Positions 43,601 through 61,732 of a stretch of DNA of 64,000 nucleotides are shown one piece after another; positions within the stretch are counted from its first letter, which is position 1; every line of letters starts with the position of its first letter. The stretch is from Pseudophaeobacter sp. EL27 (lineage in GTDB: Bacteria; Pseudomonadota; Alphaproteobacteria; Rhodobacterales; Rhodobacteraceae), in assembly GCF_900313025.1 (NCBI RefSeq), contig NZ_OMPQ01000015.1, positions 71,775-135,774 on the forward strand, given 5' to 3'. The translations under genes were made by a program, and so were the position numbers. The notes beneath the pieces are model-generated. The model did not search any database and was not told where the DNA came from. It saw nothing but the letters and a program-made list of their open reading frames with translations.

Positions 43601-43851
43601 TTGGCCTTGAACGAGGTAATGAGCGTACCGGTGGCCAGATCAAAGGGATCATCATTATCGCCTGCCACGGTGAATTGGCTGCCATCACCATTGCCCAGCA
43701 TCCAACCACCAGCGTAAGAGGCGCCGCCAGATCCAACGCCATCCTGAGCGATGCCATCGCCAAGACCGCTGTCGTCCTCGGTATATCCATCGCGGAAATC
43801 CCAAAGACCAATCAGATTAGCCGAATACGGGTTGTCAAAATTGTCAGCCAT
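40645..43851 (-). CDS. Secreted RTX (haemolysin-type calcium-binding) protein with C-terminal Hint domain
   Basis: 1068 residues. There is no Sec signal; the N-terminus is acidic. A LamG/concanavalin-like region occupies about 10-225 (NLIGLWDFRDGYTEDDSG). RTX nonapeptide blocks follow (GGGGADSLEGGVGDD; GGEGSDSVEGGEGDD; GGAGSDTIDGGIDDD) with a beta domain between them, and then a Hint domain from Cys876 (CFTPGTLIATPEGERRVEDL, VSPNHRVLVANDKTALYF) of about 140 residues. RTX repeats bind calcium and imply type I secretion. The Hint domain may self-process or attach the protein covalently. No T1SS genes are nearby. Ribosome-binding site AGGAGA before the ATG. Confidence 0.88.
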   Translation of the reverse strand: MADNFDNPYSANLIGLWDFRDGYTEDDSGLGDGIAQDGVGSGGASYAGGWMLGNGDGSQFTVAGDNDDPFDLATGTLITSFKANSYPGVGDQTVVSRGLETEGDSDGENFVVRVTEDGSVQLTHADGGNEVAFETGTGFFAAGDVVTVSYGWSPGGVTLLVENTTQGTSYTTGDDIDGMTMDVAADGEDSFVIGADGDGGNTFDGGIDYVAVLDDNVVTVSGGGLDGIVEGTAGDDLIDTSYLGDPEGDRIDNDDANNPADGEDDDLVNAGTGDDTVLAGEGDDTVHGGGGADSLEGGVGDDVLSGDTDVPGVGGGGTREVFQWDLAPDPDGGDPVDAGDDLSGGFSQDTGSITVDFSVSGSSGDTGNEFSDVPQFVGNINTGGISADPTSGLNSDVSSDGSTVDYQLDFSDAVGDVSFRVSDIDADSAVTITAFDAAGNPVVVNLAGGPGLTMEDTDAVSGYDTASAREDDTFTSDDNPDTSMLVTIPGPVSSIVITHTQDGTINSSVVVSDVFFDALGTPVTSIPGDDTIDGGEGNDIIDGNDGEDSLIGGDGDDTIDGGEGSDSVEGGEGDDVIDTSSDNAVPLPDRGFPGYDGTTPSIPAVPADADPLDDRDTVDGGAGNDIILTGDDNDLITGGAGSDTIDGGIDDDTIDGGTEDDVITGGEGSDSLMGGAGSDTIYGGLDPIFPDGLNITDDGSDGRPVDPDPTNGMDTIDGGAGDDVIYGQDDDDLISGGIGNDMIDAGIDDDTVTGGEGDDTILGGQGDDELDGGAGLDEIDLGAGDGTDFARGGTGSDTISGISQNDTVYGGEDDDDSDVDVLDLRGVAEEQNPGGSLVVEYDPTNAENGTVSFLNSAGEVTGTADFFEIENVIVPCFTPGTLIATPEGERRVEDLAVGDRIITRDNGIQSIRWLGKHNLATADLKAAEHLQPILIREGALGNGLPERDMMVSPNHRVLVANDKTALYFEDREVLVAAKHLTGLAGVDAVETSSVTYIHFMFDQHEVVLSDGAWTESFQPGDQSLRGLDNAQRNEVYEIFPELKSEVGREAYSSARRSLKRHEARLLVH

Positions 43852-45033: not shown

Positions 45034-46071
45034 TTACTTCTTCAAGTTAACCCAGATCTTATCATAGATCGCCTGAGTTGCTTCATCACAGACTTCGATA
45101 AAGACCCCGGCACCAGCACTAGCGGGCGGATTGCCCTCTGGCAGGTTCGCCAGTTCAGGGTCCAGGAAGGGCGCGACACCAGACAGGCCGGATCCGTAGC
45201 GCGCATAGTTGGACACTGCGGCAATGTTTTCTGGCTCAAGCAGGAAATCCATGAACTTTAGCGCGTTTTCACGGTTGGGCGCGTCTTTCAGCAGCACCAC
45301 ATTGTCCATCCAGACAACGTAACCCTGGGTCGGGAATGCATAGCTCAAGGTGTCGCGTTCTTCACGGGCCTTGGCGGCAAAGCCATCATAGATCTGACCA
45401 ACGGCTGCGTCACCCGACACCAGAACCTCTTTGGCAGTATCCGAGTTGAACGACGCCCAATGCCCCTTGGCCTCTTGGAGCATCGCGTTCAACTCTGTCA
45501 GCTTTGCGCGATCGGTCGAGCATTGCTCCATGCCAAGATGCAACGCCGCCATCGCCATGACTTCGCCCTGGCTGTCCAGCATATTGATCTTGCCCGAAAG
45601 CTCTGCGGGTGGGTTGAACAGGATATCTGTTGTGTTGATATCTCCAGCAAACACGGCGGAATCCACCGCAAATGACGTCGATCCCCACTGGTATGGGATC
45701 GAATGCGCCCAGCCTGGATCAAACGACGGATTTGCCCACTCAGGTGCGATATTGCCTTTGTTGGCAAGTTCTCCGTCACCGATGCGGTCCAGCAGGCCTT
45801 CTGCTGCCATGATCGAAACCATGTAGTCGCCGGGGACTGCAACGTCATAGGTGCCGATAGCTCCGGCTTTCAAGGAGGCAAGCATTGCTTCGTTGGAATC
45901 GTAGGTATCCATGGTAACTTCGATACCGGTTTGCGCTGTGAACTTGTCCATCAGCTCTTGTGGCATGTATTCGAACCAGTGGTAGACAACCAGTTTGCCC
46001 TCGGCGCTGACAGCATTGGCGGCCAGTGCCATCCCCATCGCGGTGACCGTCGTCTTTAGCATGGTATTCAT
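45034..46071 (-). CDS. Polyamine-type ABC transporter substrate-binding protein (PotD family)
   Basis: 345 residues. The Sec signal ends near AVSAEGK. The mature protein is a cluster-D/PotD-type binding protein: LVVYHWFEYMPQELMDKFTA, MDTYDSNEAMLASLKAG and YDVAVPGDYMVSIMAAEGLL. It captures a spermidine/putrescine-like cation in the periplasm. The polyamine-ligand acidic residues cannot be assigned without alignment, so other amines are possible. Last gene of the ABC operon. Confidence 0.85.
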   Translation of the reverse strand: MNTMLKTTVTAMGMALAANAVSAEGKLVVYHWFEYMPQELMDKFTAQTGIEVTMDTYDSNEAMLASLKAGAIGTYDVAVPGDYMVSIMAAEGLLDRIGDGELANKGNIAPEWANPSFDPGWAHSIPYQWGSTSFAVDSAVFAGDINTTDILFNPPAELSGKINMLDSQGEVMAMAALHLGMEQCSTDRAKLTELNAMLQEAKGHWASFNSDTAKEVLVSGDAAVGQIYDGFAAKAREERDTLSYAFPTQGYVVWMDNVVLLKDAPNRENALKFMDFLLEPENIAAVSNYARYGSGLSGVAPFLDPELANLPEGNPPASAGAGVFIEVCDEATQAIYDKIWVNLKK

Positions 46072-46091: not shown

Positions 46092-46901
46092 TTACTTTGT
46101 TTTATCGGTTTTCGAGACGAAGTAGCTGATTGTGACCATTATGATTGAGACGCTCAGCAGCATGGTCGAGATCGCCATAATGTTTGGCTTGAGGCCTTGT
46201 TTGACCGAGCCAAAAATCGCCGTGGGCAGGGTCTCGATGCCAGCGCCCTTGACGAAGTTGGTGATGATGAAGTCATCAAGAGAGACGATGAAGGCGAGCA
46301 GGAAGCCGGAGATGATACCGGGCATCATCAGGGGCATCAGGATCCTGGTAAAAGCCTGTCTTTTGGTGGCGTAAAGATCCATCGCCGCCTGTTCATAGCT
46401 GTCCTCAATTCCTTGCATTCGGGCCGAAATCGGCAGGTAAGCAAAGGGAATACAAAAGGCGATATGCGCCAACAGGATCGTCATCAGGCCGCGACCAAAA
46501 CCAATCGAATTGAAAAAGATCAGCGTGGCGACAGCCGTCACGATTTCAGGCACCATCAGCGGCAGGGAGATCAGGCCAAAACTCACCCTGCGCAGGCGGA
46601 ACTTGCCCCCCCGAACAATCGCGGTCGCCGCCAGCGTGGCAATTGCCGTTGACACGGTGGCCGCAATGATTGCGATGACAAAGCTGTTGCGCGCGGCCAG
46701 TTTGAACTTGCCGCTTTCCGGGCCGGTGAACACATCAACGTACCAGTGCAGCGACAGCCCTTCCCAAACGGTGATCGATTTTGAGGCGTTAAAGGAATAG
46801 ACCGTTACGACGACCAGTGGGGCGTAGAGGATGATCAGGCAAAGAATGGTGATGGCCCGAAACCCTTTATAATTGCGAACATCTGCTGTTGAGCGCGCCA
46901 T
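46092..46901 (-). CDS. Polyamine-type ABC transporter permease (PotC family)
   Basis: 269 residues with about six transmembrane segments and the inner-membrane EAA-type loop [19 protein letters not shown]. The start is the ATG that overlaps the TAA of the upstream permease gene by one base; an upstream open extension is inside that gene. It forms the channel with the PotB-type permease and is energised by the PotA-type ATPase. Confidence 0.88.
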
Positions 46902-47830
46902 TATCCTGCCTCCTTTTCTGCCTTGGCTTGCTGTCGGGCAAAGATCAGCAGGATGATGAGAACCATGGTCAACAGGATCATGGAGGCCGCTGCCCCAAAG
47001 GGCCAATTGCCGGCGTTGCCCTTAAATTGCTCTTCGATCAGCGAGCCAATCATGAAGTTTTTGGCACCCCCAAGAAGATCAGGGGCGAGGAAAGAGCCAA
47101 GCGAGGGCACAAAAACAAGGATGCAGCCCGCGATGACACCAGGTTTGACCGCGGGCAGCAGGATACGACGCAGCGTGGTCGCCTTGCTGGCATAGAGATC
47201 CGCTGCCGCTTCGGAGAGCGTGAAGTTGTAGCGCTCGACCGCTGCGTAGATCGGCAACACCATGAAGGGCAGGTAGGAATAGAACAAACCCAGCTGGACC
47301 GCGAAATTGGTGTTGATGATCCGGATCGGATCATCGATCAACCCGATGTTCATCAGGAAACCATTCAACGGGCCTTCGTCACGCAGCAAGAACTTCATCG
47401 ACACCGTCCGGATCAACAGGTTCACCCAATAGGGGATGGTGATCAGGAAGACCCAAATGGGGCGCACGTTTTCGGCACGGGTCGCGATGAAATAGGCCGT
47501 TGGGAAGCCAATGACCAAACTCAGGAGCGTTGCTGCTCCGGCCTGCCAGATCGAGCGCCAGAAGATTGTGATATAGGTCCATTCCACGCTACAGGCTTCG
47601 TCGCCAAACAGGCCGCGATCACAGAAAAACTGCTCATAGGAGGCCAGACTAAACTCCCAAACAACGCCGCCGCGGAACTCTTTAGTCAGGAACGAATAGA
47701 CTAACATCATCCCGACCGGCACCAGTGAGAGCACCAGTAATACGACCCAAGAAGGCAGCAACAACCAATTGCGGGCCTCTGCATAGGTGTCCGTTGTTGC
47801 GCTGCCGCCGCTTGCTGCACCGCTAGCCAT
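46901..47830 (-). CDS. Polyamine-type ABC transporter permease (PotB family)
   Basis: 309 residues with about six transmembrane helices. The coupling-helix EAA loop is seen in [21 protein letters not shown] hydrophilic periplasmic loop (about 65-95) contains [14 protein letters not shown]. The stop of the ATPase gene overlaps its start, and its own stop overlaps the next permease, so translation is coupled throughout. Confidence 0.88.
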
Positions 47831-48921
47831 CAGTCTACCAGGAGGCGTGCCGCCCCCAGCTCCATGTTGACGAAGACATCATTACCCGGCTCAAATATGC
47901 GTTTGTTGCCGCGATCCGAATTGGAGGTGCGAACAGTAAAGTTCGGCCCATCCGCCAGATCGATGATCGTGGTGATATCCGTGCCGGCAAATACGTTCTC
48001 AAGCACCTTGCCTTTGAGGCTTTCGCTTTCCGTTGGCTCATCCGAGATAAACAGCCGTTCTGGGCGCACCGACATATGCACCTTGGCGCCGGTACCAATG
48101 CCATCAACAGCATTGCAGGTCAGTTCATGGCCACCGCCGAGGTGGCAAATCGCCCGACCGTTGTTGATCGCATCAACGGAGACCTCCAGAAGATTTGTTT
48201 CGCCGATGAAATCCGCAACAAACATGTTGCGTGGGCTTTCATAGATGTCGCGGGCCCCTCCCAGTTGCTGCAGCTCACCGGCAGACATAACCGCGATGCG
48301 GTCAGACATCGTCAGGGCTTCTTCCTGATCATGGGTCACAAAGATAAATGTGATCCCGGTTTCACGCTGCAAATGCTTGAGTTCCAACTGCATCGCCTGG
48401 CGCAGTTTCAGATCCAACGCCGACAGCGGCTCATCCAACAGCAGCACCTTGGGCTGCGGCGCCAGCGCGCGCGCCAGTGCCACCCGCTGCTGTTGGCCCC
48501 CCGAAAGCTGCGAGGGTTTGCGCGCCGAGAACTGCGACAGCTGCACCAATTCGAGCATTTCCCCCGCCCGCTTACGTGCCTTGCCCTTGGATTTACCGCG
48601 CATTTCCAGACCAAAAGCCACATTGTCCAGAATGGTCATATGCGGAAACAGCGCATAGTTCTGAAACACGGTGTTCACCGGTCGCTGATGCGGTGGCAGG
48701 GTCTCGATCTCCTCTCCGTAGAGATAGATTCCGCCCTCCGTCACATCCTCAAAACCAGCAATCATCCGCAAAAGCGTGGTCTTGCCGCACCCGGATGGGC
48801 CCAACAGGGTGAAAAACTCGTTGTCCATGATGGACAGTGATATTTTCTTTAAGGCTGTAAAATCGCCGTAGCGCTTCACAGCATCGCGCACATCAATCGC
48901 GACTTCGGGATCGTGAGACAA
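47830..48921 (-). CDS. Polyamine-type ABC transporter ATPase (PotA family)
   Basis: 363 residues. Walker A LLGPSGCGKTTLLRMIAGF, Q-loop FQNYALFPHMTI, signature LSGGQQQRVALARALA, Walker B KVLLLDEPLSALD and switch His (FVTHDQEEAL). A C-terminal TOBE-type regulatory domain (about 280-360) follows. First gene of the operon; a LysR-type palindrome lies 85-99 bases upstream. Together with the three downstream genes it encodes a complete importer for a polyamine-like substrate. Confidence 0.93.
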   Translation of the reverse strand: MSHDPEVAIDVRDAVKRYGDFTALKKISLSIMDNEFFTLLGPSGCGKTTLLRMIAGFEDVTEGGIYLYGEEIETLPPHQRPVNTVFQNYALFPHMTILDNVAFGLEMRGKSKGKARKRAGEMLELVQLSQFSARKPSQLSGGQQQRVALARALAPQPKVLLLDEPLSALDLKLRQAMQLELKHLQRETGITFIFVTHDQEEALTMSDRIAVMSAGELQQLGGARDIYESPRNMFVADFIGETNLLEVSVDAINNGRAICHLGGGHELTCNAVDGIGTGAKVHMSVRPERLFISDEPTESESLKGKVLENVFAGTDITTIIDLADGPNFTVRTSNSDRGNKRIFEPGNDVFVNMELGAARLLVD

Positions 48922-49388
48922 AGCGTCCTCCCTGGAAACAGTTCAGTTACAAGGAGCATAGGGGGCCTGTTTACCCGCGTTAATGACGGAGTCCCTCAGC
49001 GTTCATTAGCCTAAGCCTAACGAAATTTTTTAATTATATTTCAATATGTTGAAATTCATTCACCCATGAATTGCCATTGTATAGTGATTGCTTCGGCGCG
49101 GCCTAACCGGCGACAGGCAAAACATATCTCTACCGCGATCGGCGCACCTGGTCTTTGCCGTCAGGGCCTAACAAGCTGATGGAGGCGCGCAGATCAGCAC
49201 ATTGAATTTGGCGACGCACCGACAGTCGTAAAATGCCATCTGGCCGACATCGCAGTCGCAAAAAGTGAGTTGCAACTGCGCCCGGGACCGCTGCTTTGCC
49301 CCACGCGTATCCCTTTCCTAGCCACTCATAAAGAGACAGGTGCGACACCGGAATTGTCCCCACAGGAGGGTTAGACGCGGCACAGATT
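48922..49388. other. Upstream region of the ABC operon
   Basis: 467 bases with no supported gene; the AT-rich promoter segment near 49025-49065 follows the operator-like palindrome. A minus-strand open frame at 49130-49411 does not look like a real protein. Confidence 0.45.
49006..49020. promoter_or_regulatory. LysR-type operator 4 (ABC operon)
   Basis: TTAGCCTAAGCCTAA fits T-N11-A and agrees with the regulon palindrome at 13 of 17 positions when one flanking base on each side is counted. It is 85-99 bases upstream of the PotA-type start. Confidence 0.55.
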
Positions 49389-50537
49389 TCACCCCTCCAG
49401 GTCTTCGACAATCCGCAGCATCATCCTGTCACAGGCAGCCAGCTGCGCTTCCTCGACATACTCGTCAGGTTTATGCCCCTGCCCCTCCATCGAGCCCGGA
49501 CCACAAACGACCGTCGGAATCCCGAGATTGGAAAAAAAGCCGGCTTCGGTGCCAAAGGCCACTTTGGTGATGTCCTGTTGTTCTGCAAGCCGCTGAGCCA
49601 GTGTTACAACCGGCGCGTCCCTAGGCACATCCAGGCCCGGATAGGCATTGTAACGGTTCAGCTTGATCGCAGCCCCGGGAAACAGATCGCGATACCGCCC
49701 GGCCACAGCCACTGCAGCCTCTGTCAGGCGCGCCATAATCTCCTCTGGGTCGTCTGCGGCCAAATGTCTGTATTCAAACGTTACATCGGCACTATCGGCC
49801 ACAATGTTGAGCGCCATACCACCGCTGAGCGTTCCAACATGCAGCGTTGTATAGGCGACACTGTACCCCTCGTCCCGCTGTCCCTCTTTCGCATACCAGT
49901 CCTGGATCCCGCGCAGCTCAGAGACAAAATCAGTCGCCAAATGCAGCGCGTTGACAAACCTGGGCGCCAGAGCGGAATGGCCGTTCTGCCCATTGCAGCT
50001 TGCCCGGATCGCCGCTTTACCCTTGTGCCCAATAGCGACACGCATCTCAGTCGGCTCGCCAACAAAACAGGCGCGCGGTGTTCCCAATAACGGAGATAAC
50101 GCCGCAAGCATTTGCTGAATGCCGACGCAGCCGATTTCCTCGTCATAAGAGAAAACCAGCTTGAGTGGTTCTTTCAAACGACGTGTCGCGGCCATATCTG
50201 CGGCGGTCAACATCGCCGCCAGATAGCCCTTCATATCGGTGGTGCCACGGCCAAAAATCTTGCCATCTTCTTTGGTCATCCGAAAGGCGTCGCGGCTCCA
50301 ATCCTGGCACTCGACAGGCACCACGTCTGTGTGGCTTGACAGCATTATGCCGCCCTCACCAGCGCCGATTTCGGCATATAGCCCCGCCTTCTGACCACAG
50401 GGCGAGGGCAAGCGGCGCAGCCGAAAGCCGCGAGTCTTGAGATAGGTCTCAATAAAGGAAATGATGTCCAAATTCGAACGCGCGCTGACCGAGTTAAACC
50501 CGATCAGACGCGCAAGATTGTCGATAGTCTGCGTCAT
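49389..50537 (-). CDS. M20-family deacetylase (acetylornithine deacetylase/ArgE-like)
   Basis: 382 residues. M20 metallopeptidase fold: SSHTDVVP (zinc His/Asp), GRGTTDMKGYLAA, SYDEEIGCVG (catalytic Glu) and a dimerisation lid with NGQNGHSALAP. ArgE-type enzymes hydrolyse N-acetylornithine or related N-acyl amino acids. It follows the TMADH-like gene by 10 bases, so here it more likely removes an acyl group from a catabolic intermediate than serves arginine biosynthesis. A dedicated symbol is withheld. Confidence 0.85.
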   Translation of the reverse strand: MTQTIDNLARLIGFNSVSARSNLDIISFIETYLKTRGFRLRRLPSPCGQKAGLYAEIGAGEGGIMLSSHTDVVPVECQDWSRDAFRMTKEDGKIFGRGTTDMKGYLAAMLTAADMAATRRLKEPLKLVFSYDEEIGCVGIQQMLAALSPLLGTPRACFVGEPTEMRVAIGHKGKAAIRASCNGQNGHSALAPRFVNALHLATDFVSELRGIQDWYAKEGQRDEGYSVAYTTLHVGTLSGGMALNIVADSADVTFEYRHLAADDPEEIMARLTEAAVAVAGRYRDLFPGAAIKLNRYNAYPGLDVPRDAPVVTLAQRLAEQQDITKVAFGTEAGFFSNLGIPTVVCGPGSMEGQGHKPDEYVEEAQLAACDRMMLRIVEDLEG

Positions 50538-50547
50538 GTATTGATGC

Positions 50548-52617
50548 TCAATCTACGGCCAGTTCAGTGATTTCCCGGCGGAATGGCAGCGCATCCCCAA
50601 TATCCGGTTCGTCCAACTCACGAGCATAGCGGTGACCAGCATAGGTTGCCCAGGCGATTGGGCCAGGCGCATTGGCGTCACCGATCAGCTTGACGGATTT
50701 GATGCCCGCGTCAGCCCATTCTGCTTCGCGTGCCTTAAGATCGTTGTATACACCGTTGTTTTCTTGGCGGGCAGCCACAATCACTACGGCGTCAGCTTCG
50801 TGTCTCTGGGGACGATCAGTGTAGACGCAATTGCTGACCACGTGATCCGGGTGGATTTCCTTTACACCGCGATTGAGCACAATATCAACGCCAGCTTCAA
50901 CCAGACGGGGGTGAATTGCGATCTGTTCCAGCGTGTTGTTGGTCCAGTCGCTGACATAGGCGGAGGGGGTGATCAAGGTGACCTCAGCGCCGTTTTTGGC
51001 CATCAGTTCCGCCAAAACGCCACCCATGTAGTAATGATCGTCGTCAAACACGATGACCTTGCCCGTTGGAATGGTTCCGTCCATCAGGTCATCAGGCGTA
51101 TAGATCTTGGCCCCCTCAGCAATGGGCATGGGCACCACATGCTGGCGCGCAACCCCATCGCGACGCCATTTCGATCCGGTCGCCAGACAGATGTTCTGGA
51201 ACCCAAATTCTAGAATGCTCTCCGCATCCAGCGCGCTGTCGAAATAGGTTTCAACATTGGATTTCTGGCTGATCTGATACTCACGGTATTCCAGAACCCG
51301 CCCCCAGGCGCTGAGCCCCGGCAGCTGGCGTTCACGCGCAACGCGCCCGCCCAGCGTGGTTGTGGCCTCGGCAATTGCCACGTCATAGCCGCGTTCAGAC
51401 AAGGCCCGAGCGGCTTCCAGCCCGGCGGGGCCGGATCCCACGACCAGCACGTTTTCGCTGTCGCCTTTGGTGTTCATCTTCTCAGGGTGCCAACCTTTGC
51501 GCCATTCTTCCATGAAGGTCGGATTCTGGGTGCACCGGCTGATCGACATGGTCATGTCACCGGTGATGCAGATATTGCAGCCGATGCATTCGCGGATATC
51601 TTCTATCCGGCCTTCTTCGATCTTCTTGGGCAGGAAAGGATCTGCGATAGAAGGACGCGCGCAGCCGATCATATCCAGCACACCGGTCCTAATCTGTTTG
51701 ACCATGACATCCGGCGAGGTGAACCGCCCTACCCCGACGATGGGCTTGTCTGTGAGCTCATGAATGCCACGCACCAGCTGCTCTTGTGCGGCTTCTTCTT
51801 TGAAACGCGAGGGGCCAGAACAATCTTCCCAGGTGCCCTGTGCCAAATCCCAAAGATCAGGCAGATCCCGGTTCATTTCGATGTAATCGCGCACCTCGGC
51901 GTTGGAGAACCCCAGCTCGCCAATGGTTTCATCCAGCGACACCCGCAAGGCGATCCCCATGGTGTCGCCCACCGCATCCTTGATATCGGCAATGACCTCT
52001 TGCGAAAAACGCGCCCGGTTTTCCAGACTGCCGCCATATTCATCGGTCCGCTGGTTGGTAGCGCGGCTCAGGAAATGCTGGAAAATACCAAACCCATGCG
52101 CGCCGTAGAGATTGATCAGATCAAACCCTGCCTTTTTTGAGCGCTTTGCAGCATTCACAAACCACCGCCGTAGATTGACGATATCTGTCTTGTCCAATGA
52201 GCGTGCCTGCACCGGGTCATTGGTGAAGGTGCGGATCGGCATCGCAGAGGGCGCCAGTGGCACCTCCTTTGAGTAGAGGTTCGGGCCGTTGATACCCGAA
52301 TAGGCCAATTGGATGCCGGCCAGGGCACCGTGGGTCTTCATCCGTTCGGACATCTTGCGCAGCTGCGGAATATCCTTGTCTTCCCAAAGACGTAGCTCGA
52401 TGAAGGGGGTGATTTCTGAAGTGTGGTGCATCTCGCATTGTTCAGTGAAAATCACCCCCCAGCCGCCTTCTGCCTTGATGCCACGCATGGCTGCTGCAGC
52501 CGAGGGATCGCGGTAGCCACCACCGTTGCAATGCGGGACCTGATAGAAACGGTTTTTGGCCGTAACGGGACCGATCTGCATCGGCTCGAATAGGATATCG
52601 TAGCGGGGATCGCGCAA
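50548..52617 (-). CDS. FMN/FAD, 4Fe-4S oxidoreductase of the trimethylamine dehydrogenase/N-demethylase family
   Basis: 689 residues with a TTG start. AGGAGG lies 6 bases before TTG, and LRDPRYDILFEPMQIGPV is the family N-terminus. An upstream ATG at 52725 would add 36 unrelated residues and swallow the operator. Old-yellow-type FMN barrel (NRFYQVPHCNGGGYRDPS; GGSLENRARF), Cys cluster in CIGCNICITGDMTMSISRC for 4Fe-4S, then FAD/NADH half (VLVVGSGPAGLEAARALSER). Relatives demethylate trimethylamine, dimethylglycine or N-methylproline. The substrate here is unknown. Confidence 0.85.
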   Translation of the reverse strand: MRDPRYDILFEPMQIGPVTAKNRFYQVPHCNGGGYRDPSAAAAMRGIKAEGGWGVIFTEQCEMHHTSEITPFIELRLWEDKDIPQLRKMSERMKTHGALAGIQLAYSGINGPNLYSKEVPLAPSAMPIRTFTNDPVQARSLDKTDIVNLRRWFVNAAKRSKKAGFDLINLYGAHGFGIFQHFLSRATNQRTDEYGGSLENRARFSQEVIADIKDAVGDTMGIALRVSLDETIGELGFSNAEVRDYIEMNRDLPDLWDLAQGTWEDCSGPSRFKEEAAQEQLVRGIHELTDKPIVGVGRFTSPDVMVKQIRTGVLDMIGCARPSIADPFLPKKIEEGRIEDIRECIGCNICITGDMTMSISRCTQNPTFMEEWRKGWHPEKMNTKGDSENVLVVGSGPAGLEAARALSERGYDVAIAEATTTLGGRVARERQLPGLSAWGRVLEYREYQISQKSNVETYFDSALDAESILEFGFQNICLATGSKWRRDGVARQHVVPMPIAEGAKIYTPDDLMDGTIPTGKVIVFDDDHYYMGGVLAELMAKNGAEVTLITPSAYVSDWTNNTLEQIAIHPRLVEAGVDIVLNRGVKEIHPDHVVSNCVYTDRPQRHEADAVVIVAARQENNGVYNDLKAREAEWADAGIKSVKLIGDANAPGPIAWATYAGHRYARELDEPDIGDALPFRREITELAVD

Positions 52618-52697
52618 TTTTGCCTCCTCAGGTCTTAGGGTCCACCCAGAATACTTGCTGAACCCTCCACCGAAAGATGCCGTTGCAAAAGCGTTGA

Positions 52698-52712
52698 TTA
52701 GGATGTCCCTAA
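52698..52712. promoter_or_regulatory. LysR-type operator 3 (TMADH-like unit)
   Basis: TTAGG-N5-CCTAA, a T-N11-A palindrome, 81-95 bases upstream of the TTG start. Its outer bases agree with the other three sites; the centre differs. Confidence 0.5.
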
Positions 52713-52739
52713 GAGGATTGCCCACCCGCTGTGCAGCCC

Positions 52740-53663
52740 TCAGCCGTCAAGACCCGGAAACCCCGTTCTGATCAGCTCTTCGCTACAATGTTTGGCAAAG
52801 GCGCGCACCACGCTGGAGGAATCCGCATCATTGGACATCAAAAGCCCCATCCGCATTGGCCTCACATCGCCAACAAGTGGGATGAACTTCAACGGTTTTC
52901 CATCCGGAGCACGATCATTCACCGGGCGCACATTAGCGATGGAATAGCCAAAACCATTGGCCACCAGGCTGCGCATGACCGCCATGTCTTTTGTACGTTC
53001 TGCGACATTGGGCACCGCGTTGATCTTTGCGAAGAAAGACAAAAAGTAGTCCGAACTAAACGGTAAATCCAACAGGACCATCGGATAGTCGTTCAGCTCG
53101 GCCACGGAGACTGCAGGCAAATGTGAGAGCGGATGGGCGACATCCACAATCGCAAAGGGGGGCAGCTCCAGCAGGGATGTGAACTGCAGATCCGCAGGCA
53201 AATTCAGATCATAGGTCAGTGCCACGTCGATTTCGGCCCGCCGCAACAGGCTGAAAATCTCAGATTGGTTCGCCTCTTTTTGATGCACATTGACCTCAGG
53301 AAAGGCCTGCTCGAAACTCCGGCGCACCGTTGGCAGAAGAACCTGGGCAAATGTGATCAGACAGCCTACCGAAAGACGCCCGCGCACCACACCGGAGATA
53401 TCGCCCGCCAGCGCCATCATCCCCTCGGCCTCTTTCAGAACGAGTTTGGCCTGCTCCAGCATGATGCGGCCTGCTTGGGACAATGACAGACCCTGCGCAT
53501 GCTGGCGCACAAATAGCGGCATGCCGAACTCTTTTTCCAGCTGATTGATCGCCGAGGAAATGGAGGGCGACGACACATTCACCTGCTCCGACGCAAGCGC
53601 AATGCTGCCAGCTTCACCAACAGCAACAAAATACTCCAATTGTCTGAGAGTGTATCTCAGCAT
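52740..53663 (-). CDS. LysR-family transcriptional regulator (probable local regulator)
   Basis: 307 residues. The N-terminal winged HTH is YTLRQLEYFVAVGEAGSIAL then SPSISSAINQLEKEFGMPLF. A linker helix and a type 2 periplasmic-binding effector domain follow (about 90-300; GRLSVGCLITFAQVLLPTVR). It lies in the catabolic cluster in the same orientation, 28 bases after the aldehyde dehydrogenase, so it is probably co-transcribed rather than divergent. It is the only LysR gene in the window and the natural candidate to bind the four palindromes. Confidence 0.9.
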   Translation of the reverse strand: MLRYTLRQLEYFVAVGEAGSIALASEQVNVSSPSISSAINQLEKEFGMPLFVRQHAQGLSLSQAGRIMLEQAKLVLKEAEGMMALAGDISGVVRGRLSVGCLITFAQVLLPTVRRSFEQAFPEVNVHQKEANQSEIFSLLRRAEIDVALTYDLNLPADLQFTSLLELPPFAIVDVAHPLSHLPAVSVAELNDYPMVLLDLPFSSDYFLSFFAKINAVPNVAERTKDMAVMRSLVANGFGYSIANVRPVNDRAPDGKPLKFIPLVGDVRPMRMGLLMSNDADSSSVVRAFAKHCSEELIRTGFPGLDG

Positions 53664-53691
53664 CGCCCATCCTTTGGCCCAAGAGCGCTCA

Positions 53692-55191
53692 TCAAGGTTT
53701 GTACTTTATCCAGGTTGTCTTCAAAGCGGTATACTTTTCAAGTGAGTGCAGTGACAAGTCACGACCGAACCCGGATTGTTTCATGCCGCCAAACGGGGTC
53801 ATTGCCGACAGGGCATCCACTGTATTCACAGAAACCGTTCCCACATGCAGCTTATCCGATACCCGACAAGCACGGCTCAGGTTGTCCGTCCAGACCGAGG
53901 CGGCAAGACCATAGATCGAGTCATTAGCCATTTCGACCGCCTCTTGCTCACTGTCGAAGGGGATCACCGCCAGAACCGGGCCAAAAATCTCGTCTCGTGC
54001 CAGTGGGTCGCCATGTTTCACATCATCAAAAATGGTTGGTTGCACAAAACACCCTTTGCCATTGACCGTGACCTGTTCCCCCCCGGCGACGAGGTTTGCG
54101 GTGGATTTCCCACTCTCAACAAAGCGCATAATGCCTGCGGTCTGCTTTTCGTCAACAATTGCACCCATCTTTGACTTCGGGTCCAGTGGGTCGCCCGGCT
54201 GTGTGGCATTTGCTCGTTCGATCAGCTTCTCGACAAAGGAATCTTTGATGGATCGCTCAACATAAAGCCGCGAATTTGCGGAACAGACCTCACCCTGATT
54301 GAAGAAAATTCCAAAGGCCGCCATATCTGCCGCAGCCTCCAGATCCTCGCAATCGGCAAAGACAAGGTTCGGGCTTTTGCCGCCCGTTTCCGGCCAGACC
54401 TGTTTCAGGTTTGATTGGCCAGAATACTGCATGAACCTTTTGCCAATGCCCGTAGAGCCCGTGAAGGTCAGACAATCAACGTCCATATGAAGGCCCAGAG
54501 CCTGGCCTGCGGTGGCGCCAAAGCCAGGCACCACATTCAGCACGCCATCAGGCAGACCTGCTTCAGCGGCCAGCTCGGCCAGTCGCAGCGCCGAAAGCGG
54601 CGATTGTTCAGCTGGTTTCAGCACCACCGAATTGCCTGCCGCCAGCGCAGCCGCTGCCTTCCATGTGGCCATGTCCAATGGGAAATTCCACGGCGTCACC
54701 GCGCCAACTACACCCAAAGGTACGCGGCTGATCAGCGCCAGATCGCCGGGTCCGGTGGGGGCGACCTCGTCATAGACCTTGTCGATGGCCTCGGCGTACC
54801 ATTGGAAAAAATGCGCCGAACCCGGGGCATCAATGGTCACCGCGTCGCTCACCAGTTTCCCCATGTCCAGACTGTCCAGCAGCGCCATTTCCTCAAGGTT
54901 TTCACGGATGAGTGCCGCCAGCTTCAGCAGGATCTCCTTGCGATCACCCGGTGCCATGCGTGACCAACGCCCATCCTCAAAGGCACGCCGTCCTGCCGAA
55001 ACCGCAAGATCGATATCAGCGGCGTCGCATTCGGCAACCGAAGTCAAGATTTCCCCATTCGCGGGATTGATGCTGTCGAAGGTTTTTCCCGAAATTGCGT
55101 CGACAAACTTCCCGTCGACAAAGGCCTGCCCCCGGAGAGAAATGCTCTCCGCGCGGGTTTTCCAATCCTGATAGCTATAGCCCATCACCAT
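53692..55191 (-). CDS. NAD(P)-dependent aldehyde dehydrogenase (amino-aldehyde type, PuuC-like)
   Basis: 499 residues. Catalytic Glu in VWPETGGKSPNLVFAD, catalytic Cys in FFNQGEVCSANSRLYVE, and the ALDH motif GVVGAVTPWNFPLDMATWKA. Similar proteins oxidise gamma-glutamyl-aminobutyraldehyde or betaine aldehyde. In this cluster it would oxidise an aldehyde released by amine oxidation or N-demethylation. It is 12 bases downstream of the DUF1028 gene. Confidence 0.9.
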   Translation of the reverse strand: MVMGYSYQDWKTRAESISLRGQAFVDGKFVDAISGKTFDSINPANGEILTSVAECDAADIDLAVSAGRRAFEDGRWSRMAPGDRKEILLKLAALIRENLEEMALLDSLDMGKLVSDAVTIDAPGSAHFFQWYAEAIDKVYDEVAPTGPGDLALISRVPLGVVGAVTPWNFPLDMATWKAAAALAAGNSVVLKPAEQSPLSALRLAELAAEAGLPDGVLNVVPGFGATAGQALGLHMDVDCLTFTGSTGIGKRFMQYSGQSNLKQVWPETGGKSPNLVFADCEDLEAAADMAAFGIFFNQGEVCSANSRLYVERSIKDSFVEKLIERANATQPGDPLDPKSKMGAIVDEKQTAGIMRFVESGKSTANLVAGGEQVTVNGKGCFVQPTIFDDVKHGDPLARDEIFGPVLAVIPFDSEQEAVEMANDSIYGLAASVWTDNLSRACRVSDKLHVGTVSVNTVDALSAMTPFGGMKQSGFGRDLSLHSLEKYTALKTTWIKYKP

Positions 55192-55203
55192 GTCCTCTTT
55201 GCT

Positions 55204-55878
55204 TCACTCGTCGCCCGGCACGCCGTAAGACGGGGCTTCTCTTGGATCCAACGCCCGTTGAACGTAGGCCTCCATTTGCGGTTTGTAGACGTCCCAAGCC
55301 TGCGCCAAGGCCTCGATCGGGCAGTCCAGTGTCCAGTCACAGCGCAGGTCGACCAGGGGCCAGCTCTGCTTGTCCACAACCTTCATACCTGCGGAATGGA
55401 TTGGCCCCGCCTCGCCGCCTGCCTCCAGCCCCGCGCGCATGGCAGCAAGCAGACGATCACCAAGATGGCCTGAGGCACTGACGAACCCATCGACAATCGC
55501 CTGGGGCACTGCGTCATTTGCCAGCAGGTTGCCACCCGAGGCGACATGATCGCCACTGGCCTGCGTCCAGATACCAAGGGAATTTGGCCCAGAATGAATG
55601 GCGGTGTTGCCCGCCTGATCCACTGCCAGAACCTGGCGGTAGTCGATGAACGTCCCCTGTTTCACCACCTCGTCGATGGCCTCAGCTGCAGTGCGCCCCT
55701 GCGCCATGAAATCAAGGGCAAGAGGGCCAAGTGACGGATCGGTGATATTTTGTGACGCAACCGCCCCAACCCCTGCACGCGCGAAAGAGCAACGCGCAGC
55801 GACTGCCGGGGAGGAGGATGAGATTGCGAGGCCGAACATACCTGTTTCAGCGCAACGGGCGACCAGAGAAAATGTCAT
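55204..55878 (-). CDS. DUF1028 (Ntn-hydrolase-like) protein
   Basis: 224 residues. The N-terminus MTFSLVARCAETGMFGLAIS and the motif VASQNITDPSLGPLALDFMA are those of the DUF1028 family, which has an N-terminal-nucleophile hydrolase-like fold. The biochemical role is unknown. It starts 4 bases after the RidA stop. Its repeated association with RidA-type proteins in catabolic clusters suggests a hydrolytic step on an amide or imide. Confidence 0.85.
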   Translation of the reverse strand: MTFSLVARCAETGMFGLAISSSSPAVAARCSFARAGVGAVASQNITDPSLGPLALDFMAQGRTAAEAIDEVVKQGTFIDYRQVLAVDQAGNTAIHSGPNSLGIWTQASGDHVASGGNLLANDAVPQAIVDGFVSASGHLGDRLLAAMRAGLEAGGEAGPIHSAGMKVVDKQSWPLVDLRCDWTLDCPIEALAQAWDVYKPQMEAYVQRALDPREAPSYGVPGDE

Positions 55879-55882
55879 GGCC

Positions 55883-56299
55883 TCAGTCCGGGATCACGGC
55901 GGTGCCGTCGATTTCGACCAGCCATTCAGGACGCGCCAGCGCCTGCACAACCAGCCCGGTCGAACAGGGGTACACCCCTTTGATATATTCCCCCATGGTG
56001 CGGTAAACAGCTTCGCGATGACGCACATCGGTGATGTAGACCACGATTTTCACCAGGTGTTCCATCGTCCCGCCGGCCTCTTCGATCAGCTGGCGAATGT
56101 TCTGCATCACCTTATGGGTCTGCTCTACCGGGTCGTGGCTGTCGATATTGACGGCGTCGTCCAGGTTCTGCGGGCATTGCCCACGCAGATAGACGGTTTT
56201 GCCGCCCTGTGTGACCACGGCCTGACACAGATCGTTGTCGAGATTTTGTTCAGGGTAGGTTTCCCCAGTGTTGAACTTGCGAATTCGGGTATGGGCCAT
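55883..56299 (-). CDS. RidA/YjgF-family enamine/imine deaminase
   Basis: 138 residues. The family core is present: RGQCPQNLDD, MQNIRQLIEEAGGTMEHLVK and a C-terminal ALARPEWLVEIDGTAVIP. The conserved Arg that anchors the carboxylate in active RidA enzymes is likely in the VQALARPEWLVEIDG segment, as in the family motif RxxLPxxxxVEIExIA. It hydrolyses reactive enamines/imines, consistent with amine oxidation by its neighbours. Confidence 0.88.
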   Translation of the reverse strand: MAHTRIRKFNTGETYPEQNLDNDLCQAVVTQGGKTVYLRGQCPQNLDDAVNIDSHDPVEQTHKVMQNIRQLIEEAGGTMEHLVKIVVYITDVRHREAVYRTMGEYIKGVYPCSTGLVVQALARPEWLVEIDGTAVIPD

Positions 56300-56346
56300 G
56301 TCGGTCTCCGTCAGATTGGAATTATGTGAGAGCTACGCTGCGGATC

Positions 56347-56381
56347 TCTCAGCGCATTTTCTGAGCACAGCTGCGCTGAGA
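56347..56381. other. Perfect 10-bp inverted repeat between hydroxylase and ridA genes
   Basis: TCTCAGCGCA and TGCGCTGAGA flank a 15-base loop. No T-run follows on the minus strand, so this is a processing or attenuating hairpin rather than a clear terminator. Confidence 0.5.
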
Positions 56382-56401
56382 TGCGTGATGCTGATGCTAG
56401 A

Positions 56402-57934
56402 TCACCCCACAGCGGTCTCAGGTGTCAGATTGTCAAAGTTGCTGGAAAACCAGTTTGAAATCGCTGAATCCCCAACGGCGGATACCTCTTGAGCCTCCAC
56501 TTTGTCGGACAGGTTGGCAGCATCCTTTACAAAGGCGAGCGGCCTCTCCCAGTCGAAATTCCGGTACAGGGCTGCAAGATGCGCAAAAGAGGGGGATTGC
56601 GAAAAGGTCTGAAAGGACAGGTGATGTCCCGCATATTCAGAATTCAGAAGATCCCGTGCAAAGGCCAGGAGTTTTCTGCGATCTTCAACCAGCCAATCGC
56701 CACCAACCCCGTAGAACTTGTCCAGCCAGGGTTTGGTTTCCGGATTACCAAAGGACGCGGCATCCGGCGTCACACTGATCTGCCCCCCACACAGCTCACG
56801 TGCGATATGCATCATTTGGGGGAGTTGCGAACAGGCTGTGACCCGCCCCGCATAGAGCAGCGATTGATTGGGCATCATCAGCCCGGCAGGTGATTTCTCG
56901 GCCAGGGCGATGGCGGCAGTAAGATGGGCATTGATGCTTTCACGATAGCACGCCAGCGTCGAGAGTTTCTCCTGCACTCCCTGCAGGCGATCCAGCCCGG
57001 TCTGGCGGATGTTGAACAGCGCCGCACCAATCATCATGTCTGTGTATTTCAAAATGCGCTGAACAAAAGAAAAGGCCGTGTAACGGTGCAGTGACGCTCG
57101 GATGAACTTGGCGGCCTTGGTGCTGCGATAGAACAGGACATCTTCCCAGGGGATCAGCACATCGTCAAAAACCACCAATGAGTCGATCTCATCAAATTTG
57201 TTGGCCAGCGGGTAGTCTTCAGCCGAGGCCCGCCCAGCAAAGCCTGAACGGCAAATGAACTTGAGACCTGCGGCATTCAAATCGCAGATAAAGCCAAAGG
57301 CGTATTCTGATTTCTCTTCCCTGCCCCAATTGGCAATGGTCGGTTTGGTCACAGCCCGATTGGCATAGGCGCCGGCGGTTTCAAACTTTGCCCCCCGCAC
57401 AACAATCCCTGCATCGGTTTCCTTGACGACGTGAAGCAGCATTTCGGGATTTTGGTCCTGAGGAACCTTCATGCGGTCTCCCTTAGGGTCGGCATTTGCC
57501 GAAACCAGAAAACTGTCTTCCCGTTTGGCCTTTTCTATGTGGGCTTGGATGTTCACCGCAAAAGCGGGCTCGATTTCACTCAGCTCCTCTTTGGCGTCAT
57601 AAAGAGACCAAAGCTCCCCCACGATATCATCCCCCGTTCGGGTCAGAACACCACCCGCCTTGTTCATGAGGTGGTCACTGGCACGGCGCTTGGCCCACCA
57701 GTCGGCCTGGCTAAAGGGCATTTTGTGAGCGATCGCAGTATCTTCTCCCTCCTCCTTAAAGGTAAGGATAGCGGCGCTTTCGCCCTGGTGCTGGAGATCA
57801 TAGAGGTCGGCACGCAGATCAATCAGGGGCCTAAATTGCGGATGAAGGGTAACATCTTGGACGCGATCCCCGTTGATGTAGATTTCGCGACTCCCGCGGA
57901 TTGACTCACGGTACTGGTCCCCGGTGCGGATCAT
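56402..57934 (-). CDS. 4-hydroxyphenylacetate 3-hydroxylase (HpaB)-family flavin monooxygenase
   Basis: 510 residues. HpaB/PvcC fold: the N-terminus DQYRESIRGSREIYINGDRV, the central VVRGAKFETAGAYANRAVTK, FDEIDSLVVFDDVLIPWEDV and ELCGGQISVTPDAASF in the C-terminal helical bundle. Such enzymes use reduced FADH2 from a separate reductase; no HpaC-like gene is present. The substrate is not recognisable. A perfect palindrome lies 112-126 bases upstream. Head of the HpaB-RidA-DUF1028-ALDH-LysR unit. Confidence 0.85.
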   Translation of the reverse strand: MIRTGDQYRESIRGSREIYINGDRVQDVTLHPQFRPLIDLRADLYDLQHQGESAAILTFKEEGEDTAIAHKMPFSQADWWAKRRASDHLMNKAGGVLTRTGDDIVGELWSLYDAKEELSEIEPAFAVNIQAHIEKAKREDSFLVSANADPKGDRMKVPQDQNPEMLLHVVKETDAGIVVRGAKFETAGAYANRAVTKPTIANWGREEKSEYAFGFICDLNAAGLKFICRSGFAGRASAEDYPLANKFDEIDSLVVFDDVLIPWEDVLFYRSTKAAKFIRASLHRYTAFSFVQRILKYTDMMIGAALFNIRQTGLDRLQGVQEKLSTLACYRESINAHLTAAIALAEKSPAGLMMPNQSLLYAGRVTACSQLPQMMHIARELCGGQISVTPDAASFGNPETKPWLDKFYGVGGDWLVEDRRKLLAFARDLLNSEYAGHHLSFQTFSQSPSFAHLAALYRNFDWERPLAFVKDAANLSDKVEAQEVSAVGDSAISNWFSSNFDNLTPETAVG

Positions 57935-58186
57935 GATGTAGTCCTTTCTCCAAACCGGGTCACGAAATCAGATGTGAAGCCTGCGTCCTCTGGTAGATGG
58001 CATGCCGAAATCAAATCCTGAAAGAACAGCTTCTCTCATCGCTGCTTAGCCTGAGGCTAAGGGGAACAGGGGCTCAGCCGCGCGGCCTGTGTTGCTGAAG
58101 ACTATCCCAATCGTACGGCAATTCTGCAGTCCGATTGGAGCGGTATCACGCCCACATCCCCCTGCGCAATCACAGGGCGTGCCGGG
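57935..58186. other. Promoter region of the hydroxylase operon
   Basis: Contains the LysR-type operator described separately. No gene. Confidence 0.45.
58045..58061. promoter_or_regulatory. LysR-type operator 2 (hydroxylase operon), perfect palindrome
   Basis: CTTAGCCTGAGGCTAAG: two 8-bp arms around a single base, with an internal T-N11-A. It is the best copy of the four related sites. Confidence 0.65.
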
Positions 58187-59464
58187 TTACCGCGCGGCCG
58201 TGGTTATCTTTGCAGCCTCGCCATCATACTGGCCATAGGCCCGCTGAATTGCGATCTGATCGCCGACATATTTGGCGTCATGCCAGATCCCCCAGAGGAA
58301 ACTCGACCCCCGGCGCGATTGCCAGGGCAATCCAAGGAAATAGATACCGGGTTCGGCGGCAACACCGCGCTGATGAATCGGCTTGCCGGATTCTTCAAAG
58401 GTGTCTGCTTTCAACCAGTTGAAATCCTGACGGAAACCCGTGGCCCAGATGACCGAAGTGATCCCGGCCTCGGCGAGGTTCAACTCGCTTACTGGGTTTG
58501 TCACACTGTCCGGAGTGGCCAGGAGTTCGCGGGCTTCGGGCTCTCGCGGCAGATCAACCCCGGTCCGTTCAACATAGGCATCAGCCATGTCCAGAAACGC
58601 CAGATAGCCCCGATCACCCTCTGCAATACTCTCCGCAAGATCTGGCGCAAATTTCAGCACGCCCTCTTTATAGGACTGCGTCATGCCAAACAGATTGACC
58701 CCCTCTTTCGCCAAACGCCGGAAATCCACTGTTTCACCGCCGCGTGCTCCGCTGACACAGATGGCAAAACGCTCGGTTCCCGGCGCCATCGAGGGCGCGT
58801 CCCACAGGCCAAGCACCCCCAGCCACCAAACATTGTCGCGACCACGATAACGGCGCGGAGGACGGTCATGGGGGCTCACCGACAAATAGACTTCCTTGCC
58901 GTCACGGCGCAGCTCATCGGCAATCTGCACACCGGAGGATCCGGTCCCCACTACCAGGACATTGCCTTGCGGCAGCTGAGCCGAATTGTGGTAATGGAAG
59001 GAATGCAGCTGGACGATGCCTTCCTCTTTTGGAATCACCGGTGGAATGACAGGAACCTGGAAAGCCCCGGTGGCGACGACAATCCGCTTAGCCTCGATCT
59101 GGCCTTCGGATGTATCAACCAGAAATCCCTGCTCGCCTGGTTTCTTTTCGGCGTTCAGAACCTCGACGCCAGTCCGGACCGGCGCATCAATCATCTCTGC
59201 ATAATCAGAGAGATATTGCGCCATGCGATCTTTGGGCACAAAGGCATCCGGGTGAGAATCTTCGAACTTGAGGTTCGGGAACCGATCATGCCAGGCTGGA
59301 CCATTCGCCACCATGGTGTCCCAACGTCCCGTGCGCCATGCTTCCGCGATACGTTTCTTCTCCAGAATGATGTGGTCAACACCATGGCTGGAAAGGTGCT
59401 CGCTCATCGCGATGCCAGCCTGCCCTCCGCCAACAACAAGTGTATCGGTTTTCTCAATCGGCAT
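58187..59464 (-). CDS. FAD/NADPH monooxygenase (CzcO/FMO-like)
   Basis: 425 residues. FAD-binding TLVVGGGQAGIAMSEHLSSH at the N-terminus, NADPH-binding NVLVVGTGSSGVQIADELRR near 165-185 and the ATGF-type motif VIWATGFRQDFNWLK near 355. The YLGLPW-like IYFLGLPWQSRRGSSFLWGI at the C-terminus is typical of this flavin monooxygenase branch, which hydroxylates N or S atoms or inserts oxygen next to a carbonyl. A related palindrome lies 101-115 bases upstream. Confidence 0.88.
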   Translation of the reverse strand: MPIEKTDTLVVGGGQAGIAMSEHLSSHGVDHIILEKKRIAEAWRTGRWDTMVANGPAWHDRFPNLKFEDSHPDAFVPKDRMAQYLSDYAEMIDAPVRTGVEVLNAEKKPGEQGFLVDTSEGQIEAKRIVVATGAFQVPVIPPVIPKEEGIVQLHSFHYHNSAQLPQGNVLVVGTGSSGVQIADELRRDGKEVYLSVSPHDRPPRRYRGRDNVWWLGVLGLWDAPSMAPGTERFAICVSGARGGETVDFRRLAKEGVNLFGMTQSYKEGVLKFAPDLAESIAEGDRGYLAFLDMADAYVERTGVDLPREPEARELLATPDSVTNPVSELNLAEAGITSVIWATGFRQDFNWLKADTFEESGKPIHQRGVAAEPGIYFLGLPWQSRRGSSFLWGIWHDAKYVGDQIAIQRAYGQYDGEAAKITTAAR

Positions 59465-59563
59465 GTTCGGTTCCTCGGTCTCGATTTACGTATTCGCAAC
59501 GTCTCTGGAGGCCAGCCTACCGAGGCGTGAGTTTTGTCGAAAATACCGTTTCTGAAACCGTTG

Positions 59564-59580
59564 CTTTGCCTGAGGCTAAT
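59564..59580. promoter_or_regulatory. LysR-type operator 1 (FAD monooxygenase)
   Basis: CTTTGCCTGAGGCTAAT is identical to operator 2 at 15 of 17 positions. It is 101-115 bases before the monooxygenase start (core 59565-59579). Confidence 0.6.
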
Positions 59581-61054: not shown

Positions 61055-61567
61055 TCAAACCGCCCGCAGTTGATCCGCTCCGACCGCCACGCGGGTCTGA
61101 CCACCCATGATCTCCATCAGGACCCAGATGCGCCGATCGGGCGCGATCTTTTCGAACTCCGCCACAAAATTGGCAAAGGGCCCCTTGGTCAGGGTCACCT
61201 GATCACCGGGCTTCAAGAGCTTAGGCGGCAGCAATTTGCCCTTCGCGTCACTGCGCAGCATCAGCTGTGAGACCAGATCCAGAGGCACCACCGTTGGCTC
61301 CTTGCCAAAGCTCACCAGCTGCGTGATCCCGTAGGTCGAATTCACCGTGCGCCAGAACCCGCGGGCTACATCGAAGGTCACGAAGATGTAGCCCGGAAAC
61401 AGTGGCCGCATGGAGGTGACGAACCTGCCATTTCGCTGTCGCGTCTCCTCTTCCATTGGCAGAAAGGTATTGAAGCCTTGGCGCTTGAGGTTCTTATCCG
61501 CGATGTTGGCACAATTCGGCTTCAGTTGCGCCAAAAACCAGCTTGTGCCGCGATCGTGGAATGTCAT
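61055..61567 (-). CDS. NusG-family antitermination paralogue (RfaH/LoaP-like)
   Basis: 170 residues. NGN domain: SWFLAQLKPNCANIADKNLK, QGFNTFLPMEEETRQRNGRF and LFPGYIFVTFDV; KOW domain: LKPGDQVTLTKGPFANFVAE and QTRVAVGADQL. It is shorter than housekeeping NusG and, unlike it, is not in the secE-nusG-rplK locus. Such paralogues help RNA polymerase through a dedicated, often capsule- or surface-related operon. No long operon follows it here. Confidence 0.85.
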   Translation of the reverse strand: MTFHDRGTSWFLAQLKPNCANIADKNLKRQGFNTFLPMEEETRQRNGRFVTSMRPLFPGYIFVTFDVARGFWRTVNSTYGITQLVSFGKEPTVVPLDLVSQLMLRSDAKGKLLPPKLLKPGDQVTLTKGPFANFVAEFEKIAPDRRIWVLMEIMGGQTRVAVGADQLRAV

Positions 61568-61732
61568 CTTGTAACCTCATTAAAACTCTATCGCTCACAT
61601 ATCGCTCGAATTTGAACGGGTGCAAGTAAGGTTTTCCGGATGTGATGTGATATCTTGATGAAGATGCTGGCGCGAACACCCCTCAAGGCGTTGATATGAT
61701 GGTATAATCCAAAACTTTCAGTTTGATACATT
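61568..61732. other. Divergent promoter region of NusG-like and recombinase genes
   Basis: 165 bases, AT-richer than the flanks. No operator was recognised. Confidence 0.4.

Follow-up and report, generated by a model that had tools for sequence, protein, structure and literature searches.

LysR-type regulators such as BenM, CatM, and CbnR act at two-site operators, which consist of a T-N11-A recognition site and a promoter-proximal second site. Here, we describe a gene cluster in which an operator of the same two-site plan is predicted before four gene units, with TTAG-N7-CTAA as the first box and a second box 26 bp away. The cluster lies in a 64-kb stretch (G000:C14:71775-135774; hereafter, the window) of the 4.55 Mb genome of Pseudophaeobacter sp. 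EL27. It comprises, on the minus strand throughout, a flavin monooxygenase-like gene (FMO), the unit HpaB-RidA-DUF1028-ALDH-LysR (ALDH, aldehyde dehydrogenase), the unit HDH-M20 (HDH, histamine dehydrogenase), and a Pot-type ATP-binding cassette (ABC) transporter. Very probably, the four sites represent a single 41-bp operator, through which a LysR activator controls histamine uptake and catabolism.

The closest described system is the HinK regulon of Pseudomonas (hinDAC and hinFLHG in P. aeruginosa PAO1 and P. putida U), for which we draw on excerpts of two papers. HinK, a LysR regulator of histamine catabolism, reportedly needs imidazole-4-acetate and binds the hinD and hinF promoters (PMC8231116) as well as T-N11-A boxes (PMC10912698). 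Like the present cluster, the regulon includes an ALDH, a peptidic-bond hydrolase, and several hypothetical proteins, which are induced together in Pseudomonas; the operator motif is conserved there between two promoters and the regulator controls itself (PMC8231116), two properties that are predicted here as well. Our cluster departs from the HinK regulon in several respects: an HDH replaces the aminotransferase HinC, the transporter is a Pot-type ABC system instead of the APC permease HinA, an FMO is present in addition, and all four units share one locus. Its HDH belongs over its full length to the family of the Rhizobium sp. (PDB 6DE6) and Nocardioides simplex (3K30) enzymes, whose named active-site residues and Cys30 are conserved here. 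In the excerpt of PMC10180351, the Rhizobium protein appears as a stand-alone enzyme for testing food, and no regulon is given, whereas here HDH would be part of one. Our literature search found no regulon of this kind outside Pseudomonas. While a LysR regulon for histamine is thus a known kind of system, the predicted operator, its breadth, and the putative FMO link appear to be new as far as that search goes.

The predicted two-box operator

A preliminary description of this DNA had proposed that one T-N11-A palindrome recurs at similar distances before the four units. All four palindromes were re-read at the positions it gave, and the centers of the TTAG-N7-CTAA boxes lie 108 (FMO), 119 (HpaB), 88 (HDH, from the TTG at 52617), and 92 bp (PotA-like ATPase) before the start codons; both the T-N11-A geometry and these distances fit a LysR-type operator. 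The sites are, however, not repeats of one 17-mer: with up to three mismatches allowed, CTTAGCCTGAGGCTAAG gave four strand-matches in the window at two places (58045 and 59564; 0.09 expected, and none of 100 shuffles reached four), the sites at 49005 and 52698 differ from it at more than three positions, and the FMO site (59564) has one half-site altered to CAAA. What all four have in common is therefore TTAG-N7-CTAA (CAAA at FMO) together with a second box in fixed register, the half of the element that had been overlooked.

This second box emerges when the promoters are aligned on box 1. The whole operator spans about 41 bp, with box 2 (approximately GAAA-N7-TTTC) centered 26 bp downstream of box 1, on the gene-proximal side. 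A weight matrix of 52 columns was built from 17 sites in relatives' genomes only, namely 15 that lie upstream of cluster genes and match TTAG-N7-CTAA exactly, plus the two CAAA-type sites preceding FMO in loci L031 and L032; not included were the LysR site of L038, the second site of L076, and sites from loci with a distant, Q-type LysR. Within the window, this matrix ranked the four sites first to fourth (Table 1), all oriented toward their genes, followed by matches of 15.7 bits (site 49006 reversed) and 13.7 bits. The four also remained on top with a matrix lacking L031 and L032 (32.1, 31.8, 30.1, and 22.3 bits; next 7.3) and with one made from HpaB promoters only (29.8, 23.5, 18.8, and 11.8 bits; next 6.7), the maxima in a simulated 4.6 Mb null being 18.5, 14.1, and 14.9 bits for the three matrices. 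When the box-2 part was used alone, three of the window sites ranked first to third and the fourth site ranked fifth.

The preliminary description had suggested a genome scan for the motif and a comparison of orthologous promoters as checks. Of the genome's 11 copies of TTAG-N7-CTAA, three fall within these 10.7 kb (binomial P ~2e-6, on the assumption that the region was picked beforehand, as it was in that description). Across 12 comparisons of matching promoters, identity is 76% in box 1, 67% in the middle element, and 60% in box 2, as against 27% in the flanks; at its eight end positions, box 1 matches in all 96 cases, though mostly because of how the sites were chosen. At the level of sequence, a shared LysR-type operator before the four units is strongly supported.

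Relatives were gathered by an HpaB alignment search, of which the best 80 loci were kept; a simple open-reading-frame caller, which performed poorly in loci of high GC content, was disregarded for gene starts. In the relatives' loci, TTAGSCTNAGSCTAA matched 2, 10, 7, and 52 times at 0, 1, 2, and 3 mismatches (permuted control: 0, 0, 2, and 39). TTAG-N7-CTAA was found 32 times in 1.41 Mb, with 27 sites at most 400 bp before a query-matched gene and none inside one, and the genes behind these sites include PotA-like ATPases of just 42-45% identity. An open palindrome search in the 80 HpaB promoters (4-base arms, spacers 0-16) was led by GAAA-N7-TTTC with 14 loci, followed by TTAG-N7-CTAA with 11.

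FMO promoters were read in 39 loci, drawn from a longer list of matches in the family and from 10 matches in the genus; they include two genes of the own genome and one training locus. Thirty of them score at least 10 bits and one 9.7, and the other eight gave nothing. Exclusion of L157 and L166 (own genome) and of L176 (same genome as the training locus L032) left 36 promoters outside training, 25 of which carry TTAG-N7-CNAA within 300 bp; the exact motif is present in 19, versus 0.15 expected. When these 25 are anchored on box 1, the box-2 positions A29, T38, and T39 are kept in all, T40 in 23, and T35 in 22.

Some loci whose LysRs differ have other first boxes before HpaB and a similar second box. 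For example, L039, L045, L059, and L082 combine a different first box (CTTC-N9-GAAG or TTCGG-N5-CCGAA) with GAAA-N7-TTTC at the same 26 bp spacing. Among six exact-palindrome box pairs, one of which is a TTAG pair, the center distance is 26 bp in five and 59 bp in the sixth (L052). Some of the loci in question additionally carry TTAG boxes upstream of other genes. Since differing first boxes keep a similar second box at 26 bp, the operator frame looks older than the present first-box sequence.

The proposed regulator and a sister cluster

The LysR of the window carries PF00126 (HTH_1; 64.9 bits) and PF03466 (LysR_substrate; 110 bits), both above cut-off, as is characteristic of LysR-type proteins. 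In a tree of 58 LysRs, from which two distant rows (L077 and L094_17863) had been removed, it falls into a supported (starred) group of 10, all of which stem from box-bearing loci. This correlation of box and lineage counts once and is weak alone, because the tree needs just one box change. The best PDB matches are 3fzv and 6m5f (E 4e-49, 171 bits), which we take to be HinK (PA0218); no function is stated in the entries, and neither of the two papers mentions these codes. The LysR of the Pseudomonas locus L086 matches 3fzv/6m5f with 583 bits and is placed in another starred part of the tree, and the window LysR is 31-32% identical to the LysRs of L086 and of a second Pseudomonas locus, L105. 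The HpaB promoters of these two loci differ from those described above: they contain the palindrome CACAAATAA-N6-TTATTTGTG, centered 85 and 88 bp before HpaB, which is a possible HinK operator.

According to the preliminary description, the cluster's own LysR controls all four units. The shared operator on which this claim builds is strongly supported across genomes; that the own LysR binds it is the most likely reading, supported though not proven by the place of its gene as the fifth of a unit under the operator, by the occurrence of all 10 members of its clade in box-bearing loci, and by its best PDB matches. A rather unlikely alternative is that the operators are real but that a different LysR shares them or is their principal user, most notably a 53% identical sister protein (G000:C14:571729-572616), so that two clusters would form one cross-wired regulon. 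The sister LysR shares the recognition-helix motif VSSPSIS with the window LysR, and the same operator type precedes its cluster: this fifth operator is 436 kb distant and is followed after 86-89 bp by a second FMO (FMO2, 57% identical). The site is one of eight other TTAG-N7-CTAA sites in the genome, of which the remaining seven all lie in loci scoring at most 0, and it is convincing through its place, not its score. On the other hand, it deviates in the middle element (16.7 bits versus 32.8-44.3 bits for the four sites), and relatives such as L032, L038, and L058 hold the cluster with a LysR of its own inside. The 14 kb read around the sister unit contain no match to HpaB, ALDH, or HDH. A third LysR relative, 34% identical to the window LysR, is encoded at G000:C8:449597-450385.

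Several results weigh against the reading of one LysR-controlled histamine regulon. The sister site scores 16.7 bits, and the simulated null reaches at least 16 bits twice; the HDH site, at 11.8 bits under the strictest (HpaB-only) matrix, is below the corresponding null maximum of 14.9. The raw count of 32 TTAG-N7-CTAA sites in relatives is unexceptional compared with 12 permuted half-sites, and because these give 0-42 matches, it is position and not count that carries the signal. A loose 15-mer scan of the genome (up to three mismatches) was uninformative, with 20+32 matches versus 20+25 for the reversed control and one near-match (C4:215014) within a reading frame, and the exact 15-mer is absent from all 197 other family genomes searched. 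Moreover, eight of the 39 scored FMO promoters lack an operator, and L050 and L080 have similar LysR recognition helices yet no TTAG-N7-CTAA. Loci with a distant LysR (Q-type helix) also bear TTAG boxes before FMO, PotA-like, and other genes, so that box and LysR subclade are not one-to-one. Finally, known HpaB-type oxygenases need a flavin reductase, and a search of the window with the reductase of L026 as query detected none. A clean pairing of recognition helix (VSS/VSP versus ISQ) and box was considered and rejected, as the Q-type loci L040, L047, L052, L056, L057, L061, L065, and L089 carry TTAG-N7-CTAA.

Histamine dehydrogenase and the putative pathway

The preliminary description had called the cluster catabolic and the unit of this flavoprotein similar to trimethylamine dehydrogenase, with a TTG start. 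The start agrees with the alignment to 6DE6, which begins at the TTG at 52617, and the family assignment holds, but the protein is much closer to HDH (1267 bits to 6DE6 and 826 to 3K30) than to trimethylamine dehydrogenase (549 bits). Judged by its sequence, it is a histamine dehydrogenase, which sharpens the general catabolic role to histamine catabolism. It is the single HDH of the genome, where the next best match is 31% identical. Eighteen of 19 residues of Rhizobium HDH taken from an excerpt of PMC10180351 are identical here, including Cys30, the Tyr171/His174/Asp265 triad, and binding and tunnel residues; the exception is the tunnel residue Leu567, which is Ala. We read Cys30 as the FMN link. 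Homarine, considered as a substrate, was dropped after the HDH identification.

The cluster most likely serves histamine uptake and catabolism. That it instead degrades another imidazole or amine (agmatine, putrescine, or N-methylated amines), with histamine as neither natural inducer nor substrate, is improbable. The HDH does belong to the trimethylamine dehydrogenase family, the transporter is polyamine-like, and the excerpt of PMC10180351 reports that Rhizobium HDH was engineered to act less on agmatine and other non-histamine biogenic amines. This alternative is opposed by the bit scores and the 18 conserved residues given above, and by the agreement of the enzyme set with that of a Pseudomonas locus whose LysR is HinK-type. 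Hardly credible is a third alternative, in which the palindromes owe their conservation to something else (a different regulator, an RNA structure, or mere descent): although the operator evidence consists of sequence and box 1 before HpaB is a different one in some loci whose LysR is of another type, the boxes are kept while the flanks are near chance identity (27%), four non-homologous genes are preceded by the same element, and the genome background of TTAG-N7-CTAA is low (11 in 4.55 Mb).

The shared catabolic gene set comprises HpaB-RidA-DUF1028-M20 and ALDH, found in the window and in L086 and L105. In L086, an HpaB gene with 68% identity heads RidA-DUF1028-M20, beside the HinK-type LysR and an ALDH, a layout that fits the list hinFLHG plus hinK-hinD in the excerpt of PMC8231116, where PA5390 is annotated as 'probable peptidic bond hydrolase' and PA0219 as 'probable aldehyde dehydrogenase'. 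From gene order and these two annotations, we infer that HpaB, RidA, DUF1028, M20, and ALDH are the counterparts of hinF, L, H, G, and D.

Under the favored reading of a histamine regulon, box 1 would be the high-affinity recognition site of LysR and box 2 the activation site, which a LysR tetramer would reach upon inducer binding. By analogy with HinK, the inducer would be imidazole-4-acetate. As lysR itself belongs to one of these units, the regulator would activate its own expression in a positive loop. HDH and then ALDH would convert histamine to imidazole-4-acetate in the first two steps, the HpaB-type oxygenase and/or FMO would open the ring, and RidA, DUF1028, and M20 might carry the ring-opened product toward aspartate.

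In 20 of the 80 HpaB loci (e.g., L026:3055-4266, L091:11545-12687, and L034:14351-15475), a flavin reductase is fused to a LysR_substrate domain without HTH; the fusion is Pfam-confirmed in L026, and the 20 loci were identified by alignment over at least 300 residues to the L026 protein. Its sensor domain has the same best PDB match as the window LysR (3fzv/6m5f), which suggests a ligand-gated flavin reductase. With a HinK-like sensor fused to the reductase in HpaB loci, a single ligand may gate transcription and reduced-flavin supply alike. A literature search for such fusions returned one paper, unrelated by title, a search for DUF1028 returned none, and one for RidA together with HpaB contributed nothing.

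Distribution, gene layout, and implications

Table 1. Predicted operators and genes of the cluster, in window coordinates, and the sister unit; scores of operators are from the relatives-only matrix.
Feature	Position	Strand	Remarks
Operator 1 (FMO)	59539..59579	-	box 1 TTAGCCTCAGGCAAA 59565-59579, box 2 59539-59553; 44.3 bits, top score; counterparts before FMO in L031, L032
Operator 2 (HpaB unit)	58020..58060	-	box 1 TTAGCCTCAGGCTAA 58046-58060, box 2 58020-58034; 34.1 bits; box-1 site before HpaB in 10 relative loci of training set
Operator 3 (HDH)	52672..52712	-	box 1 TTAGGGACATCCTAA 52698-52712, box 2 52672-52686; 32.8 bits, weakest; counterparts before HDH in L032, L038, L058, L091
Operator 4 (ABC transporter)	48980..49020	-	box 1 TTAGGCTTAGGCTAA 49006-49020, box 2 48980-48994; 36.9 bits; counterpart before PotA in L032
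FMO	58187..59464	-	flavin monooxygenase-like; nearest model MSMEG_0569, 363 bits, below its cut-off of 498; candidate imidazole-4-acetate monooxygenase
HpaB-type oxygenase	56402..57934	-	Pfam HpaB_N + HpaB; first gene of its unit; candidate imidazole-4-acetate oxygenase, HinF-like
RidA-family protein	55883..56299	-	Pfam PF01042
DUF1028 protein	55204..55878	-	Pfam PF06267; PDB match 2imh, an entry without stated function
ALDH	53692..55191	-	Pfam PF00171; top NCBIfam model PuuC, below cut-off; candidate imidazole-acetaldehyde dehydrogenase, HinD-like
LysR regulator	52740..53663	-	fifth gene of HpaB unit; Pfam HTH_1 + LysR_substrate; proposed activator at all four operators
HDH	50548..52617	-	TTG start at 52617; PDB 6de6, 3k30
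M20 hydrolase	49389..50537	-	Pfam M20; reaches NCBIfam acetylornithine deacetylase models; candidate last-step amide hydrolase, HinG-like
PotA-like ABC ATPase	47830..48921	-	first gene of transporter unit; above TIGR01187 cut-off
ABC permease 1	46901..47830	-	PotB-like by position; Pfam BPD_transp_1; 86% match in L032
ABC permease 2	46092..47006	-	PotC-like by position; open reading frame + Pfam BPD_transp_1; start approximate
PotD-like solute-binding protein	45034..46071	-	Pfam SBP_bac_8; below equivalog cut-off; candidate binder of histamine or similar amine
Sister unit	L148:2460-8126 = G000:C14:566959-572625		operator, FMO2, two Rieske oxygenases, RidA (87%), DUF1028 (78%), LysR (53%), short M20-like stretch

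HpaB is present in one of 12 genus genomes and in seven of 198 family genomes (own genome counted), a rarity that marks the cluster as accessory. The adjoining region (61055-63333) contains a NusG-like gene; it also encodes a serine recombinase split over two separate reading frames, one with the resolvase and the other with the recombinase domain. At 40645-43851, the window encodes a 1068-aa protein with a Hint domain and ten RTX-type calcium-binding stretches.

FMO is far more widespread than HpaB, with relatives in nine of the 12 genus genomes and in 67 of the 198 family genomes. A close HDH (at least 76% identity) occurs in 30 of the latter, at full length in 28 and partially in two; this cut was set after a gap between 76 and 66% had been seen, and looser E-value matches occur in 55 of the 198. 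All but one of the 30 genomes also have FMO (26 within 10 kb), and the sole exception has HpaB (hypergeometric P for co-occurrence of FMO and HDH 3.5e-15, relatedness ignored). Absences of FMO and HDH are soft, since at most eight and five candidates, respectively, were scored per genome. Among 39 loci examined, 26 have RidA downstream on the FMO strand, and in 23 of these it directly follows FMO (gap of at most 94 bp). FMO and HpaB look interchangeable, and both are present in the window; either may be the imidazole-4-acetate oxygenase. We tentatively consider that FMO could be an unrecognised one-component imidazole-4-acetate monooxygenase, which would replace the two-component HpaB-type (HinF-like) enzyme in much of the family.

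For the use of histamine in this family, these results predict an operator, a regulator, and an inducer; the FMO of the putative pathway is present in about one-third of the 198 family genomes that were searched. A previously anonymous cluster thereby becomes a pathway that can be tested, and two of its proteins, FMO and DUF1028, stand out for further attention.

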